A DNA stretch of 64,000 nucleotides from Gemmobacter lutimaris (GTDB lineage Bacteria; Pseudomonadota; Alphaproteobacteria; Rhodobacterales; Rhodobacteraceae): contig NZ_QXXQ01000003.1 of the NCBI RefSeq assembly GCF_003570715.1, positions 310,001 through 374,000 on the forward strand, given 5' to 3'. A model generated the notes under the pieces. It did not search any database, had not been told where the DNA came from, and worked only from the letters and a program-made list of their open reading frames with translations. The position numbers and the translations under genes were made by a program. Each line of letters opens with the position of its first letter. Position 1 is the first letter of the stretch. Positions 8,902 to 18,597 of this stretch are shown here, piece by piece.

Positions 8902-10398
8902 TCAGGTGAAAATGATCTGATCGCGGTCGGCCCAGACCAGATTGGTGAAGCGCAGATGCGCCTCGCCGATGCTGAGTTCCAGCCTGCCCGCATGGCGGCT
9001 GAACACCGGATCAGCCTCGCCGTCGATGCGGATCGAGTCGTTGACAAGGTCGAAACCGATCACCCGGTCGCTGCCGCGGTCGTAGTCAGGGTCGATGACC
9101 ACGACATGCGACGCGCCGTTCAGCCGCAATTCATCGTCGCCCTTGCCGCCGCTGACATCCGCCGATCCAAGTCGGCGGACGGCAAGCACATCGTCGCCCC
9201 CCCCACCGGACAGGATGGAATGGCCCCAGGAACGGGTGTCGAGCACAAGATGATCCAGGCCGGTGCCACCCAACAGGGTGTCATTCCCACCGCCTGATCG
9301 AAGATAGTCGTGCCCGGCATCCCCGCGCAGCAGGTCGCTTGCGATATAGCCATGCATCGCGCTGCGGTCCGCCGAGAGTGAATCGATGCCCGCGCCGCCT
9401 CGCAGGGTGTCGGAACCGTCTCCGCCCCAAAGCGTATCCTGTCCCGCCCCGCCGAACAGCATCTCGTCGGCTGCGCCGCCGGTCACGATGTCATAGCCGT
9501 CACCGCCATAAAGCCGTCCGTTGGTATCTTTGAGAACATCCGCGCCATTGCCGCCACGGATCACGTCATACCCCGAGCCGCCGATGATGGTATCGGCCCC
9601 GCCCATGCCGGAAAGCGTGCTGTCGCCAATCGGCCCGACAACGGTTTCGGCGCGGCCGGTCATCTTCAGGGTTACCCCGGCACCGTCGGCGGTGATCTGC
9701 CAGCCACGCGTATTGACCGGATCGCCATAAAGCCGGGTCAATGCCGCTGCGTCCAATGAGCGGTAGTCGGTGAAATAGCCGTTGTCGCTGTGGGTATAGG
9801 ACATCAGCGTGTTGCTGGTATTGTCATACTGGCGCGGCAGCTTGATGTCTCCCTCGAAGGGGTGCTTCAGGCCAAGCGCATGGCCCAGCTCGTGCAGCAT
9901 CGCCTCGAAAGCGAAGGTGCCGGGCGCATAGCTGGCTCCCGATGCGAAATCGAGTACCAGATCGCCGCCCGTAGTGCCCCATTTGGAGACGGCCGGGTAA
10001 TGCGCCCAGCCTGCATAGCTGGAGCCGGTGGAATTGTAGATGTCGATCATCGCCCCGTCCGCGTCGCTTTCGACAAGAACAACTCCGGCGGTTTGCATGA
10101 CGATTTCGGCGGCTTTGCGAAACTCTGCACGCTGCGCATCGCTGAACGGTGCATAGCTGTCACTGTCGTAGGGATTGAACTCGGACAGGGACGGCAATTC
10201 CTGTTGCAACAGGAAAGAATAGGTCACGATGACAGGCGTTTTCAGATCGGTCAGGGCATTCCAGCGCGCGCCCGAACTGTCAAGATAGGCCAGAAGGGCA
10301 CGTTCGCTGCCCGCAGGCGGAGGGTCGGCAACGACGACCCCCGGTTCTTCTTCCTCTTCTCCCGGACCAGCCGCACCAAGCACACACAGAAGGCACAT
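8902..10398 (-). CDS. RTX metalloprotease, M10 (serralysin/matrixin) family
   Basis: Predicted secreted zinc protease. The 498-residue protein has the metzincin motif HELGHALGLKH at residues 169-179 and a Met-turn LMSY soon after, followed by about a dozen GGxGxDxxx calcium-binding nonapeptides (GGSGYDVIR, GGAGQDTLW, GGDGSDTLR and others). There is no Sec signal. RTX repeats with a hydrophobic C-terminus point to type I secretion, but no ABC/HlyD exporter genes are in the window. The start is taken at 10398, behind a GGAG; the frame remains open further upstream. The first residues (MCLLC) hold a CxxC, followed by a run of five Glu and a proline-rich stretch, which is not the classical serralysin propeptide. 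Confidence 0.88.
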   Translation of the reverse strand: MCLLCVLGAAGPGEEEEEPGVVVADPPPAGSERALLAYLDSSGARWNALTDLKTPVIVTYSFLLQQELPSLSEFNPYDSDSYAPFSDAQRAEFRKAAEIVMQTAGVVLVESDADGAMIDIYNSTGSSYAGWAHYPAVSKWGTTGGDLVLDFASGASYAPGTFAFEAMLHELGHALGLKHPFEGDIKLPRQYDNTSNTLMSYTHSDNGYFTDYRSLDAAALTRLYGDPVNTRGWQITADGAGVTLKMTGRAETVVGPIGDSTLSGMGGADTIIGGSGYDVIRGGNGADVLKDTNGRLYGGDGYDIVTGGAADEMLFGGAGQDTLWGGDGSDTLRGGAGIDSLSADRSAMHGYIASDLLRGDAGHDYLRSGGGNDTLLGGTGLDHLVLDTRSWGHSILSGGGGDDVLAVRRLGSADVSGGKGDDELRLNGASHVVVIDPDYDRGSDRVIGFDLVNDSIRIDGEADPVFSRHAGRLELSIGEAHLRFTNLVWADRDQIIFT

Positions 10399-10574
10399 CG
10401 TCGAATCTCCAAACCCTGCAAAATGCAACCCAAGGCGGTGCGACGGTAGGGGCTGACTACGGTCGGCACAAGGGCCTTCACGGGCGGAAGTGCGCAATTC
10501 GTCATTCGTGTCACCCGTGATTCCAATATCTTGCGGGCGCTTGTTTATGGCATCTGGCCTGCTAACCTGCCGCA

Positions 10575-11798
10575 ATGTCACAGGTGCCGCTTCTCCCCAA
10601 TTCCCGCGCTCGGCGCATCTTTCTGGACCGTCACGCGCTGGCCGAGGCGCCGTCGGGTGCTGCCAGCGGCGCTGCGCTGCATGATCTGATCACCCGCATC
10701 GGGTTCGTGCAGGTGGACAGCATCAATACGGTAGAGCGGGCGCATCACATGATCCTCTGGGCGCGGCGGCAAAGCTATCGCCCCGAGGCGCTGGCGCGGC
10801 TGGTCGAACGCGACCGGCTGTTGTGGGAACACTGGACCCATGATGCCTCGATCCTGCCGGTCGCTTGCTTCCCGTTCTGGCGGAGACGGTTCGAACAGGA
10901 TCGCGCCCGTCTGGTGCAGCGCTGGACCGGCTGGCAGCGCGCGGGTTTCCACGAGAAATTCGACGAGGTTCTGGCGCGGGTCGCCGATCATGGTCCCGTC
11001 ACCTCGGCCGATGTCGGCGAGGGTGAGGCGCGCGGTTCGGGTGGCTGGTGGGACTGGCACCCGTCCAAAGCCGCGCTGGAATATCTGTGGCGCGTGGGGG
11101 AACTGTCTGTGTCGCGGCGCGAGGGGTTCCGCAAGGTCTATGACCTGACGGAACGGGTGATCCCGGCAGAGTGGCGCGGGGTCATGTACGACGATGCGGC
11201 GGTGATTGCCTGGGCCTGCGATTCTGCGCTGGACCGGCTGGGCTTTGCGACACCGGGCGAACTGGCGGCCTATTGGGGGGCTGTCACCCCGGAGGAAGCA
11301 AAGACCTGGGCCGAGGCGGCACTGGCCTCGGGTGCGGTGATCCGCGTGGCGGTGGAAGGGGCTGATGGCAGCCTGCGCACCCATCTGGCGCGGCCTGATC
11401 TTCCGCAGGTCCAGCCGCCAGAGCCGCCGGGGCGTATCCGCATCCTGTCGCCCTTCGATCCTGCGCTGCGTGATCGCAAGCGGGCCGAGCGGTTGTTCGG
11501 TTTTCACTACCGGATCGAGGTTTTCGTGCCCGAGCCGCAGCGGCGCTTCGGCTATTACATCTTTCCGGTGCTGGAAGGTGCGCGGCTGGTAGGTCGCGTG
11601 GACGCCAAGGCGCAGCGTGATCGTGGCGTGCTGGCGGTGCGTGCCTTCTGGCCCGAGGCTGGCGTGGCAATGGGCGCAGGCCGCTGCGCAAGGCTTGAGG
11701 CCGAACTGGATCGTCTGGCGCGGTTTGCCGGCTGCGATGCCGGGGTCGAATATGCGCCGGGTTGGCTGCGCGACCACCAGCCGCCGGCGCGGGATTAA
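10575..11798 (+). CDS. winged-helix DNA-binding protein, YcaQ/AlkX family (putative crosslink repair glycosylase)
   Basis: The 407-residue protein matches the YcaQ / HTH_42 family, in which E. coli YcaQ (AlkX) is a DNA glycosylase acting on interstrand crosslinks. Visible family landmarks are the N-terminal ARRIFLDR, FVQVDSINTVERAHH, the LWEHWTHDASILP segment, and the later FDPALRDRKRAERLFGF and FGYYIFPVLEGARLVGRVDAKA blocks. The protein is soluble, with three winged-helix-like segments expected. It is divergent from the RTX protease and convergent with N-formylglutamate amidohydrolase (1-base gap). Glycosylase activity is inferred from the family; I have not identified the catalytic residues. 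Confidence 0.82.
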   Translation: MSQVPLLPNSRARRIFLDRHALAEAPSGAASGAALHDLITRIGFVQVDSINTVERAHHMILWARRQSYRPEALARLVERDRLLWEHWTHDASILPVACFPFWRRRFEQDRARLVQRWTGWQRAGFHEKFDEVLARVADHGPVTSADVGEGEARGSGGWWDWHPSKAALEYLWRVGELSVSRREGFRKVYDLTERVIPAEWRGVMYDDAAVIAWACDSALDRLGFATPGELAAYWGAVTPEEAKTWAEAALASGAVIRVAVEGADGSLRTHLARPDLPQVQPPEPPGRIRILSPFDPALRDRKRAERLFGFHYRIEVFVPEPQRRFGYYIFPVLEGARLVGRVDAKAQRDRGVLAVRAFWPEAGVAMGAGRCARLEAELDRLARFAGCDAGVEYAPGWLRDHQPPARD

Positions 11799-13819: not shown

Positions 13820-14431
13820 ATGCGGTTGTTTCACTCTCCGACCTCGCCCTATGTGCGCAAGGTCATGGTTCTGCTGCACGAAACCGGGCTGTTGCTGCGG
13901 GTGGAGCTTGTTGCGGCGCAGGGCACGCCGGTCGATCCGGGGTCTATGCCGGTGGACCGCAATCCCTTGGGCAAGATTCCTGCGCTGGAAACCGATGAGG
14001 GGGTGGCGCTTTATGACAGCCGGGTGATCTGCCGTTATCTGGATGATCGGGCCGGGGCAGGGTTCTATCCGGGCGGGCCCGCCCTGTGGGAGGTGCTGAC
14101 GCTGGAGGCGACGGCGGATGGTATCCTCGATGCCGCGATCCTGATGGTCTACGAATCGCGTGTGCGGCCCGAGGACCGGCGTCACCCGGACTGGGTCGAG
14201 GGGCAGTGGGCCAAGATTGCCCGCGCGCTGGATACGGCCGAGCGGCGATGGGCCGCGCATCTGGCCGGGCCGCTGGACATGGGGCAGATCGCCTTGGGCT
14301 GTGCGCTGGCCTATCTGGATTACCGTCATTCCGACCGGCCGTGGCGGGCTGCCCATCCGCATCTTGCCGCCTGGGAGGCAGAGTTTTCCGCCCGCCTGTC
14401 GATGCAGGCCACACGGCCGCCGATGGCGTGA
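13820..14431 (+). CDS. glutathione S-transferase family protein
   Basis: The 203-residue protein has a thioredoxin-like N-terminal domain beginning MRLFHSPTSPYVRKV. Ser9 stands where many bacterial GSTs place the catalytic Ser or Cys. NPLGKIPALE carries the cis-proline, and the ALYDSRVICRYLD motif contacts the glutathione gamma-glutamyl group. An all-helical C-terminal domain follows. The substrate is unknown. It is convergent with the PAP2/barrel gene (2-base gap). Confidence 0.88.
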   Translation: MRLFHSPTSPYVRKVMVLLHETGLLLRVELVAAQGTPVDPGSMPVDRNPLGKIPALETDEGVALYDSRVICRYLDDRAGAGFYPGGPALWEVLTLEATADGILDAAILMVYESRVRPEDRRHPDWVEGQWAKIARALDTAERRWAAHLAGPLDMGQIALGCALAYLDYRHSDRPWRAAHPHLAAWEAEFSARLSMQATRPPMA

Positions 14432-14433
14432 CC

Positions 14434-15648
14434 TCAGAAACGCCTGGCCAGTCCGACATTGAGGGCGCCGGTTGTCAGATCCGTCCCCAGCTTGCCGCCC
14501 GAATCGAGTGCGATGTCGTGGTGCGACCATGTTGCCTTGATTTCGACAAAGGCTGACCACCGGGCAGAAAGATCGCCGCGCAGCCCGGCGACGGCCTGAA
14601 TGGCCGGGCCGGTCATCTGACACCCGAAGGTATGCGCTCCGCCGTTCGGGCGAATATCGACATGTGGCACGGCGACCCCCGCGCCAACACCCGCATAGGG
14701 GAAGATACCGTGCCGGTTTTCTGGCCAGCGATACCAAAGGGTCAGCGTGGCGATGTTCAGGCCGTCGGAGAACTCCAGTCTTTCATACCCGTGGCGGGCA
14801 GGGTTGTCGGCATAGGCCTTGGCGTGGTTCAGGTCGAGCCCGTAACCCCAGCCGCTTGCAAGCCAGCGGGTGAGGCGCAGCCCGTAATAGGGTGGGGCCT
14901 CCAGCGATTTGCCGCGCCAGTTTACGGTTTTCCGGCCCGAGGGGGCTGTGATGTCGCTGACGGCCACGCCCTGCCAGCCGCCATAAAGCGCAAGCTCCGT
15001 CTCGGCGCGCGTCGCCGAGGTGCCGATTATGGTCATCAGTGCGAAGACGAGCAGGCGAAGGCTGACTGTCGTGTGTGTTCCCGCCGCGCGCAGCCAAGCG
15101 GGGGCGGTGCGCAGGCCTCGGCCGATCCGGCGCAGACCGGCGGTGACCCCACGGCGGGCCACGGAGTCGCGACGCAGCAGCCGGTCGCCCAGCCAGCCCA
15201 GAACCGCGCCCGCCAGAACCTGCCAGATGTCATGTGCCTGCGCCTGAATGCGTGAGGCCCCCACAAAACCGGCCGCGATCACCACGACGGCCCGCGCGAC
15301 AGGATGCGACGGCAGGCAATCGTGCAACAACGAACTGGCACCGAAGGCCGCCGCTGCGGTATGGGCGGAAGGAAAGCCATGGGTGCCACCGCTCGGCCGT
15401 GTGTTCAGTGTGCTGTCACCCAACAGGCGTTTTGTGCCATGGGCGACGGTGAACACGCCGACAAACCGCAACATCAATTCGCCCGCCCTGCCATCGGCCA
15501 GCGCGCAGGCCCCGGCGATGAGGGGCAGGGCGATCTGAAGCCGGTCGCCATAGCGCCGCGCCGCCGGTTCGCAGAGAATCAGGCTCAGCGACAGGGCGGC
15601 CAAGACAAGCTGGACGCGGCCGAACAATTTCCAGTAGGGCCTGACCAT
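14434..15648 (-). CDS. PAP2 phosphatase fused to LpxQ-like outer-membrane beta-barrel
   Basis: An unusual 404-residue protein. Residues 1-160 form a hydrophobic PAP2 (type 2 phosphatidic acid phosphatase) module with NTRPSGG (82-88), the FPSAHT motif (His96) and SRxxxxxH (Ser132-His139); the position four after His139 is Gln, not the common Asp. A basic stretch (about 158-194) leads into a hydrophobic segment ending SATRA (215) that looks like an internal signal peptide. The last 189 residues are beta-rich and end in Phe, as BAM substrates do. Segments such as APPYYGLRL, LDLNHAKAYAD, LEFSDGLN and PYAGVGAG resemble, from memory, the lipid A oxidase (LpxQ) family. A likely role is lipid A dephosphorylation coupled to outer-membrane lipid A modification, which is inference. 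Confidence 0.72.
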   Translation of the reverse strand: MVRPYWKLFGRVQLVLAALSLSLILCEPAARRYGDRLQIALPLIAGACALADGRAGELMLRFVGVFTVAHGTKRLLGDSTLNTRPSGGTHGFPSAHTAAAAFGASSLLHDCLPSHPVARAVVVIAAGFVGASRIQAQAHDIWQVLAGAVLGWLGDRLLRRDSVARRGVTAGLRRIGRGLRTAPAWLRAAGTHTTVSLRLLVFALMTIIGTSATRAETELALYGGWQGVAVSDITAPSGRKTVNWRGKSLEAPPYYGLRLTRWLASGWGYGLDLNHAKAYADNPARHGYERLEFSDGLNIATLTLWYRWPENRHGIFPYAGVGAGVAVPHVDIRPNGGAHTFGCQMTGPAIQAVAGLRGDLSARWSAFVEIKATWSHHDIALDSGGKLGTDLTTGALNVGLARRF

Positions 15649-15745
15649 TCGCCTCTCCGTCGCGTGTGGTCAAACCCTAGCCGGGTGATGTAACAGAGAG
15701 TTCACGCGCCCGTGTCGCAGGCATTGTGGCATCGCGAGGGGCGAA

Positions 15746-15903: not shown

Positions 15904-16464
15904 GTGTCCCACGCAGAAGATCACGCAGGCACCCGCAGGGATTTCCTGTATTACGCAACGGCCGGTGCCGGCGCTGTCGCTACCGGCGCGGCGGTCTGGC
16001 CGCTGGTCAACCAGATGAACGCCTCGGCCGATGTCCGCGCCCTTGCCTCGATCCATGTCGATGTGTCCAATGTGGCCGTGGGCTCGCAACTGACCGTCAA
16101 ATGGCTGGGCAAGCCGGTCTTCATCCGTCGCCGCACCCCCGAAGAGATCGAGGCCGGACGCGCGGTTGCGCTGACTGATCTCGTCGATCCCCATGCCGAC
16201 AATGCCAACAAGCCGGACGCCGATGCCGCCGACCAGAACCGCACGCTGGACGAAGCGGGCGAGTGGCTGGTGATGATGGGCGTCTGCACCCACCTCGGCT
16301 GTGTGCCGCTGGGCAATGGCGCCGGTGACTTCGGCGGCTGGTTCTGCCCCTGCCACGGGTCGCACTACGATACGGCCGGCCGCATCCGCAAAGGGCCCGC
16401 GCCGCGCAACCTGCCTGTGCCGGTGGCGCAGTTCACCGATCCGAACACCATCAAGCTGGGCTGA
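15904..16464 (+). CDS. petA: ubiquinol-cytochrome c reductase, Rieske iron-sulfur subunit
   Basis: Electron-transfer subunit of the cytochrome bc1 complex. The 186-residue protein has a twin-arginine-like start (TRRDFLYY) leading into one membrane anchor (about residues 15-35), then the soluble Rieske domain with CTHLGC (Cys128, His130, Cys133) and CPCHGSH (Cys148, Cys150, His151). These provide the 2Fe-2S ligands and the disulfide. Translation starts at a GTG, behind a GGGAG. petB follows after 11 bases, so the three pet genes form one operon. The 255 bases upstream contain no gene and include a perfect dyad at 15746-15766. Confidence 0.97.
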
Positions 16465-16475
16465 GGGAGACACCG

Positions 16476-17789
16476 ATGGCCGGAATTCCGCACGACCATT
16501 ACGAGCCCAAGACGGGCATCGAAAAGTGGCTGCACAAGCGCCTCCCGATTGTCGGGCTGGCCTATGACACGCTGATGATCCCCACACCGAAGAACCTCAA
16601 CTGGATGTGGATCTGGGGCATCATCCTGACCTTCTGCCTTGCGTTGCAGATCGTGACCGGCATCGTGCTGGTGATGCACTACACCCCGCATGTCGATCTG
16701 GCCTTCGCCAGCGTCGAACACATCATGCGTGACGTGAACGGCGGCTTTGCCCTGCGCTACCTGCATGCCAACGGGGCCTCGCTGTTCTTCGTGGCCGTTT
16801 ACCTGCACATCTTCCGGGGTCTCTACTACGGCAGCTACAAGGCGCCGCGCGAAGTGACCTGGATCGTCGGGATGATCATCTATCTCTGCATGATGGGCAC
16901 CGCCTTCATGGGCTACGTTCTGCCCTGGGGTCAGATGTCCTTCTGGGGCGCGACCGTGATCACCGGCTTGTTCGGCGCCATTCCGGGCATCGGGCCGGAC
17001 ATTCAGGCCTGGCTGCTGGGCGGACCGGCTGTCGATAACGCCACGCTGAACCGCTTCTTCTCGCTGCACTATCTGCTGCCTTTCGTGATTGCGGCGCTTG
17101 TTGCCGTTCACATCTGGGCCTTCCACACCACTGGCAACAACAACCCCACCGGGGTCGAGGTGCGCCGTGGCTCCAAGGAAGAGGCGAAGAAGGACACCGT
17201 TCCGTTCTGGCCTTACTACGTCATCAAGGATCTGTTCGCGCTGGCCGTGATTCTGGTGGTGTTCTTCGCCATCGTCGGTTTCATGCCGAACTATCTGGGT
17301 CACCCCGACAACTATATCGAGGCGAACCCGCTGGCGACGCCCGCGCATATCGTGCCGGAATGGTACTTCCTGCCGTTCTACGCCATCCTGCGCGCCTTCA
17401 CTTCGGACGTCTGGGCGGTGCAGTTCGTTCAGTTCATCACCTTCGGCATCGTGGACGCCAAGTTCTTCGGCGTGCTGGCGATGTTCGGCGCGATCGCTGT
17501 CATGGCGCTGGCGCCCTGGCTCGATACCTCGTCGGTGCGTTCGGGCAAGTATCGCCCGATGTTCAAATGGTGGTTCTGGCTGCTCTGCGTCGATTTCATG
17601 GTCCTGATGTGGGTCGGCGCCCAATCGACCGAGTTCCCCTATGACTGGATCTCGCTCATCGCCGCGACCTACTGGTTCGCCTACTTCCTCGTGATCCTGC
17701 CGCTTCTGGGCGTGATCGAAAAGCCGCAGGCATTGCCCGCGACCATCGAGGAAGACTTCAAGGCCCATTACCCGACCGCGGCCGAGTGA
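16476..17789 (+). CDS. petB: cytochrome b subunit of the bc1 complex
   Basis: The 437-residue integral membrane protein is the diheme quinol-oxidising core of the bc1 complex. It has the expected eight hydrophobic helices. The heme histidines lie in the second and fourth helices ([14 protein letters not shown] and [10 protein letters not shown]... AVHIWAFH), and the Qo-site PEW triad is present in [15 protein letters not shown]. The bacterial b-type insertion and C-terminal tail give a length similar to that in Rhodobacter. It is the second gene of petABC, 11 bases after petA and 19 bases before petC. Confidence 0.97.
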
Positions 17790-17808
17790 GAGAAAGGAAG
17801 TGACTGAG

Positions 17809-18597
17809 ATGCTTCGCAAAATCGCAATCAGCGCGATCTCGGCCCTGGCCATCACCTCCGGCGCCGCCATGGCCGCCGGTGGCGGCGGCCACATCGAGGA
17901 TGTCGCCTTCTCCTTTGAAGGTCCGTTCGGCAAGTTCGAAAAGAACCAGCTTCAGCGCGGCCTTCAGGTCTTCACCGAAGTCTGTGCGGCCTGCCACGGT
18001 CTGAAATATGTGGCCATCCGCACACTTTCGGACGAGGGCGGCCCGCAGCTTCCCGAGGATCAGGTCCGTGCCTACGCCAAGAACTTCTCCGTTGTGGACA
18101 AAGACACCGGCGAAGAGCGTGAGGCAGTCCCGTCGGACCACTTTCCGCCGAATACCGGCGCGGGTGCCCCCGACCTCAGCCTGATGGCCAAGGCGCGCGC
18201 GGGCTTCCACGGGCCCTACGGCACGGGTCTGAGCCAGCTGTTCAACGGTATCGGCGGCCCGGAATACATCCATGCGATCCTCACCGGCTATACCGGCGAG
18301 ACCAAGGAAGAAGCCGGCGAGACCTATTATGAAAATCACGCCTTCCCCGGCGGCTGGATCAAGATGCCCCCGCCGCTGGCCGACGATCAGGTGACCTATA
18401 TCGACGGTCACACCGCGACGGTGGACGCCATGTCGGAAGACGTGTCGGCCTTCCTGATGTGGACCGCCGAGCCGAAGCTGATGGCGCGCAAGCAGATGGG
18501 CTTTGTCGCCGTTCTGTTTCTGATCGGGCTTTCGACGCTGCTTTACCTGACCAACAAGCGGCTCTGGGCCGGCATCAAGGGCAAGAAGCTGGTCTGA
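17809..18597 (+). CDS. petC: cytochrome c1 of the bc1 complex
   Basis: Heme c subunit that passes electrons from the Rieske centre to soluble cytochrome c. The 262-residue precursor begins with a signal peptide cleaved near Ala22 and has the heme-binding CAACH at residues 59-63. The sixth ligand methionine probably lies in the PPPLAD region context, and one C-terminal membrane anchor ([20 protein letters not shown]) is present. The ATG at 17809 is preferred over an in-frame GTG at 17800 because the AAGGAAG Shine-Dalgarno is then correctly spaced. It is the last gene of the operon and is followed by a terminator. Confidence 0.96.

Follow-up and report, generated by a model that had tools for sequence, protein, structure and literature searches.

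A single uninterrupted frame of 404 residues on the minus strand of a 64,000-nucleotide stretch of Gemmobacter lutimaris DNA (the window) joins a PAP2 phosphatase module to an outer-membrane-type barrel through an internal signal-peptide-like segment (Table 1). We think it somewhat probable that the gene encodes a preproprotein that is cleaved into a lipid A phosphatase and an outer-membrane partner, whose chemistry we leave open. The fusion architecture is confirmed. The initial annotation had described a PAP2 module, a basic segment, a hydrophobic stretch, and a barrel in one frame, and all of these were located, including His96 in PSAH (residues 93 to 96), His139 in SRIQAQAH (residues 132 to 139, SR-x5-H), the Ala-Thr-Arg-Ala that ends the hydrophobic stretch at residue 215, and the 189 residues that follow it up to the C-terminal Phe404. 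The interpretation that went with it, an LpxE-type phosphatase followed by an LpxQ-type oxidase, is partly supported.

Table 1. Features of the fusion gene and its flanks (window coordinates)
Feature	Position	Strand	Basis or remark
Whole fusion ORF	14434..15648	-	404 aa, stop included; ATG at 15648, stop at 14434
PAP2 module, residues 1-158	15175..15648	-	PF01569, E = 1.8e-9; K73, R84, H96, R133, H139 at catalytic motifs
Arg-rich, Lys-free linker, residues 159-193, presumed cytoplasmic	15070..15174	-	Linker composition in four fusions
Internal signal-peptide-like segment, residues 194-215, ending T-R-A/E	15004..15069	-	Hydropathy and comparison with stand-alone barrels
Mature outer-membrane barrel domain, residues 216-404, C-terminal Phe	14437..15003	-	PF13505, below cut-off in the window
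Ribosome-binding-site-like GGAGAGG	15652..15658	-	Read from sequence, just 5' of the ATG
Glutathione S-transferase (GST)-like gene, one slot border	13820..14431	+	Name by recognition
petABC, other slot border	15904..18597	+	Names by recognition
Rieske (petA)	15904..16464	+	Name by recognition; traced across relatives' loci
Cytochrome b (petB)	16476..17789	+	Name by recognition; traced across relatives' loci
Cytochrome c1 (petC)	17800..18597	+	Name by recognition

In Pfam, the PAP2 module of the window chain scored 37.8 bits over residues 84 to 158 against a cut-off of 27.2, and the barrel (residues 201 to 404) scored 22.8 bits with PF13505, below the cut-off of 28.7. The same barrel profile exceeded its cut-off in the fusions of genomes G090 (30.2) and G353 (29.3), fell below it in that of G008 (25.0), and matched 29 of 30 aligned barrel rows, the window's included, at E ≤ 0.01. 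The division of the chain into PAP2 and outer-membrane-type barrel is supported. Neither the whole chain nor the barrel profile found a convincing match in PDB sequence searches, and single-sequence AlphaFold2 models were too poor to use (mean pLDDT, 34.3 for the whole chain and 28.3 for the barrel alone). Lipase matches of the chain were weak and were taken as chance. At E ≤ 0.001, the window genome (G000) has one barrel and two PAP2 proteins of this kind; the distant second PAP2 paralogue (L003; C23:249526-249912) begins with a signal-peptide-like sequence and closes with a short C-terminal stretch whose last residue is Phe. Elsewhere in the window, positions 8902 to 10581 of the minus strand encode an RTX-repeat protein with weak metallopeptidase matches.

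The open linker is weak evidence for a real fusion, because in DNA so rich in GC, 57 codons of the same composition would stay open with a probability of about 0.45. Codon-position GC across the linker was uninformative. The case against an assembly accident comes from recurrence, as the same parts are joined in frame and in the same order in three more genomes (G008, G353, and G090). Among the 11 genomes of a genus search, the fusion was found in the window genome and in G008, where it is 59% identical to the window chain over residues 9 to 403; seven genomes had no match. Two others, the close relatives G002 and G003, carry PAP2 without the barrel in the same genomic slot as the window fusion, which we count against our preferred explanation. 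The gene order and match values of a Gemmobacter caeni locus (L001) are those of G003. A 610-residue frame around the barrel of G705 was considered as a further fusion and rejected as a frame artifact; that barrel starts independently and carries a signal peptide of its own. Further barrels that lie in exceptionally long open frames or are second copies were noted in G163, G364, G017, and G074 (L153 to L156). Among the open-licence papers listed in literature searches, none reported a PAP2-barrel fusion, and nothing relevant to a lipid A link appeared.

To place the fusion among its relatives, we used a sample of 394 genomes of the window's family (Rhodobacteraceae), nearly one per genus, with a threshold of E ≤ 0.001. 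The barrel occurred in 133 of these genomes, PAP2 of the window type in 37, and both in 12, where chance alone predicts an overlap of 12.5. Neither part therefore appears to depend on the other, and 121 of the 133 barrel-carrying genomes had no match to a window-type PAP2. Where both parts are present, they are adjacent or fused in nine of the 12 genomes: fused in three (G000, G353, and G090) and encoded by same-strand neighbors, PAP2 first, in six (G281, G019, G381, G213, G067, and G227, the last with a remote barrel [35%]). They lie apart in G212, G258, and G364. Among the tandem pairs, that of G281 has overlapping genes, and the two genes of G213 almost touch.

We compared 40 loci of 9 to 12 kb, comprising the best barrel matches along with fused, tandem, and PAP2-only cases. 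Both petA and petB were present in 34 of them, and the GST of the window was also matched in 25. The contents of the slot between petABC and GST vary (barrel alone, PAP2 and barrel, fusion, or PAP2 alone), and most barrels are secreted proteins that stand alone, in the loci examined mostly adjoining petABC without a PAP2. As the slot is common to most loci, much of the adjacency of PAP2 and barrel probably goes back to a single ancestral layout. The pair persists in G090 (fusion) and G381 (tandem), which have no petA, petB, or GST match within about 5 kb; its neighbors there are succinyl-CoA ligase and heme genes. The window fusion itself is flanked by petABC and GST, with no lipid A genes, and this too counts against our preferred explanation.

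In stand-alone barrels, the signal peptide ends just before the first strand, mostly between Ala and Glu (A/E), and a hydrophobic stretch and an A/E point are retained at this site in every one of the four fusions. The signal-like segment thus stops exactly where the mature part of the stand-alone barrels begins, in line with the internal signal peptide that had been proposed here. By eye and by hydropathy, each of the four fusions has a basic flank, a hydrophobic core, and a small residue at −1 (Ala in all four; −3 is T, L, A, or G), and the linkers contain 8 to 14 Arg and no Lys. Hydropathy in the window chain reaches its maximum (2.18) at residues 195 to 209. An internal signal peptide at residues 194 to 215 is supported by these features, and its cleavage would be required for outer-membrane insertion, since no spacer separates the hydrophobic segment from the first strand. 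Upstream, the hydropathy profile has five clear membrane spans; six are assumed for the PAP2 fold class, and the region of residues 97 to 110, below threshold in the window, reaches it in G008 and G353.

To characterize the PAP2 part, we aligned 27 rows, window included, in which K73, R84, H96, R133, and H139 are invariant. The C2 (PSxH) and C3 (SR-x5-H) motifs of LpxE are present, with P, S, and H of the former and R and H of the latter fixed in 27 of 27 rows. The usual C1 motif of LpxE is K-x6-RP; the window family instead has K-x10-RP (K73-x10-R84-P85), with K, R, and P invariant throughout. Two cysteines of this part, C48 (15505-15507) and C111 (15316-15318), are likewise invariant in all aligned rows. 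Searched against the PDB, the 27-row profile had LpxE (6ebu) as its best solved match (E = 4.9e-6), followed by a PgpB-type enzyme (E = 0.0011). All 27 rows matched the NCBIfam LpxE model (NF007159, a model of the Helicobacter type) at E ≤ 0.01, but the window missed the curated cut-off of 177 bits, with 29.0 for the whole chain and 31.8 for the PAP2 part.

The best evidence for lipid A as the substrate is the gene context in some relatives, among 30 PAP2 loci inspected. An LpxF-like gene adjoins PAP2 or is fused to it in three of them: it lies directly upstream in G148 and G154, and in G088 a window-type PAP2 is fused behind an LpxF-like phosphatase (P0004; E = 1.4e-21). An ArnT-like PMT gene adjoins PAP2 in six loci, among them L043, whose PAP2 is 62% identical to that of the window over residues 26 to 152. 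Of the six ArnT-like proteins, NCBIfam scans covered two and Pfam scans three, the remainder being tblastn matches. Every named match in NCBIfam was below its cut-off (77 to 100 of 400 bits for LpxF-like and 87 to 92 of 567 for ArnT-like matches). Thirteen of the 30 loci sit in the petABC/GST slot. Together with LpxE as the nearest solved structure, this context makes it fairly well supported that the PAP2 part is a lipid A phosphatase, as first proposed, although curated cut-offs are missed and the window's own flanks hold no lipid A genes. Its family is probably of the LpxE type. In G088 (L059/P0004), G148 (L058/L161), and G154 (L063/L162), the LpxF-like and PAP2 parts are flanked by two PMT-type glycosyltransferase genes, an arrangement that looks like a compact lipid A-remodelling cluster.

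The barrel had been likened to LpxQ, the outer-membrane lipid A oxidase of Rhizobium, a small barrel with a signal peptide. The barrel matched general barrel profiles only, and no profile in the Pfam and NCBIfam scans named LpxQ. A signal peptide, a small barrel, and a C-terminal aromatic residue are all present in the barrel family and are not specific to LpxQ. PagL (PF09411) matched weakly in 7 of 30 rows (best E = 1.4e-5) and was not listed for the window barrel; the conserved PagL motif is H-x-S, and the conserved His 63 and His 117 of this family have no Ser two residues on. A PorG match (24 of 30 rows; best E = 8.6e-9) was taken as general barrel similarity. The 30 rows share 20 invariant columns, including Q14, R46, D83, R95, E157, and N185 (P0002 numbering). 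Such fixed polar residues would be expected of an enzyme but are not proof of one. An LpxQ-type lipid A oxidase is one candidate among several.

We also investigated where else the barrel occurs. In a class search, some match to the barrel profile was found in 107 of 289 genomes, a sample that may or may not include LpxQ-bearing rhizobia. Among the matches listed, only G614 (E = 1.7e-14) and G665 (E = 3.8e-6) were nearly full-length outside the window's family, the others covering mainly the C-terminal half, and within the searched genomes strong matches were almost confined to that family. A copy of the barrel (41%) is present on two rhizobial megaplasmids. On plasmid p1 of Sinorhizobium sp. 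B11 (L039, 5959-9549), a barrel relative has as neighbors a PmrA-like response regulator (219 of 330 bits), a sensor kinase, and a PAP2 of another kind, which is not close to that of the window (E = 0.017 in a two-sequence comparison). A near-identical copy of the L039 barrel is found on a Rhizobium plasmid (L040). A hypothetical protein on a Vibrio parahaemolyticus plasmid (L148, 5824-6483), annotated next to a metallophosphoesterase, is 30% identical to the barrel-family protein of L033 over 78% of it (E = 2e-7).

We built trees for both parts. In the PAP2 tree (35 rows), the fusions of G000, G008, and G353 and the PAP2-only copies of G002 and G003 make up a starred set of five, and the fusion of G090 belongs to a separate starred set of four. 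The fusions of G000, G008, and G353 also group in the barrel tree (39 rows), in a starred set of five that includes the stand-alone barrels of G215 and G087, and G090 is placed elsewhere without a star. Stars were given to 5 of 32 inner branches in the PAP2 tree and 5 of 36 in the barrel tree, and by themselves the starred branches force no more than one fusion origin. The simplest reading is probably that of two fusion origins, two relatives having since lost the barrel.

From the observed architecture, recurrence, conservation, and synteny, we infer a topology, a cleavage, a substrate, and a partnership for the two parts. One preproprotein would be made from the gene, and its PAP2 part would enter the inner membrane so that its two ends lie inside and its active site, judging from the fold class, faces the periplasm, where the enzyme would most likely take phosphate off lipid A in the manner of LpxE. 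The Arg-rich linker would remain in the cytoplasm. Segment 194-215 may then serve as an internal signal peptide that signal peptidase I cuts after Ala215 (A215/E216), and the freed barrel of 189 residues would reach the outer membrane by the usual route. An uncut chain should hardly be able to get there, so cleavage should be needed for barrel function. The barrel may act as an outer-membrane partner in the same envelope pathway as PAP2, and the single chain would deliver both parts in equal amounts to two membranes.

Several other explanations would account for parts of these data. It is conceivable, although we think it falls short of probable, that the barrel is simply a small outer-membrane protein of a general kind that plays no part in lipid A and that the fusion arose when a stop was lost between neighbors in the petABC-GST slot. 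The shared slot, matches to general barrel profiles only, co-occurrence not in excess of chance, and the overlapping or nearly touching genes of G281 and G213 are consistent with such a by-product. It is harder to reconcile with a pair that is intact outside the slot in G090 and G381, with fusions that fall in two distinct regions of the PAP2 tree, and with the rhizobial plasmid barrel that neighbors a PmrA-like regulator, a kinase, and a further PAP2. The barrel half could also be on its way to being lost, with the chain kept for its phosphatase and the barrel unused. G002 and G003, which lack the barrel, are nested among the fused PAP2s, and in the barrel tree the window barrel evolves fast and has an odd composition (end branch, 0.76; G090, 0.69; G008, 0.32; G353, 0.29; median, 0.32); it keeps 41 of 46 conserved columns, the second lowest value among 30 rows. 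A frame that stays open over 189 residues, a retained signal site, and the presence of all eight charged or His columns that are conserved in at least 27 of 30 rows nevertheless make this decay quite unlikely. Still less likely is that the frame yields two separate proteins, with translation of PAP2 beginning at the ATG and that of the barrel at an internal start. A scan for in-frame ATG, GTG, and TTG from residue 140 on (CTG left out) found only GTG163 and ATG205 ahead of the mature barrel in the window. GTG163 precedes the signal segment, and G008 has several starts before that segment, including ATG213 and ATG216. However, no ribosome-site-like sequence precedes GTG163 in the window, ATG205 sits inside the hydrophobic signal segment, and some starts in G008, G353, and G090 are preceded by only three or four base matches. 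An independent barrel product from the window frame is thus unlikely, and a fused precursor is likely.

The substrate and the barrel chemistry can be read in other ways as well. Eight of the 27 PAP2 rows also match an undecaprenyl-diphosphatase model and two match PgpB, weakly in both cases, and a PgpB-type enzyme is second in the PDB search. These matches would fit a PAP2 part that acts on undecaprenyl or phosphatidylglycerol phosphates and not on lipid A, but this is rather improbable given that all 27 rows match the LpxE model, that LpxE is the best PDB match, and that LpxF-like and ArnT-like neighbors occur in some relatives. The full reading of the initial annotation, in which LpxE and LpxQ form one chain and the phosphatase and then the oxidase act on the same lipid A, draws on the LpxE-like PAP2 and its lipid A-type neighbors in some relatives, on the requirement of LpxQ for 1-dephosphorylated lipid A, and on the many fixed, enzyme-like polar residues of the barrel. 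We regard it as unlikely: LpxQ is named by no profile, most barrel genomes (121 of 133) lack a match to the window-type PAP2, and nearly full-length barrel matches outside the window's family are limited, among those listed, to G614 and G665. A wider version, in which a chain cut by signal peptidase supplies an inner-membrane 1-phosphatase and an outer-membrane enzyme (LpxQ-type or new) that acts on its product, making a lipid A-remodelling polyprotein that probably evolved twice, is a speculative and rather unlikely proposal. The missed cut-offs, the K-x10-RP spacing, the lack of excess co-occurrence, the few starred branches, and the fast evolution of the window barrel also count against our own explanation. 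The cleaved preproprotein with a lipid A phosphatase and a partner of open chemistry is the reading that we retain.

It is unusual for one chain to combine a polytopic inner-membrane enzyme with an outer-membrane barrel, an arrangement that should force cleavage at an internal signal peptide before the barrel works and that makes such processing directly testable. Repeated fusion and tandem pairing also make the unassigned barrel family, present in 133 of 394 genomes, a candidate for an enzyme of lipid A or of the envelope. Among known systems, the PAP2 part shares with LpxE (6ebu) the C2 and C3 motifs, a small polytopic build, and, in some relatives, a lipid A-type context, but the window chain adds a signal peptide and a barrel at the C terminus. 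The barrel is similar by description to LpxQ of Rhizobium, a small outer-membrane-type barrel with a signal peptide, here paired with an LpxE-like enzyme; unlike this pairing, barrels of the window type mostly lie beside petABC without PAP2 in the loci examined. Small OMP_b-brl barrels (PF13505) match 29 of 30 rows, with weak PagL-, OmpW-, and opacity-type matches, whereas the window's barrel family has a conserved polar set of its own. In the LpxF-like/PAP2 fusion of G088 (P0004), the same PAP2 family is joined to another lipid A-type protein, but that partner is a second inner-membrane phosphatase and not a barrel. A precedent for the proposed processing is FbcH of Bradyrhizobium, a cytochrome b-c1 precursor that is cut at an internal signal peptide. 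Like the window chain, it has a polytopic inner-membrane part that is followed by an internal signal peptide and then by a part for export; both parts of FbcH end up in one inner-membrane complex, whereas those of the window chain would go to different membranes.
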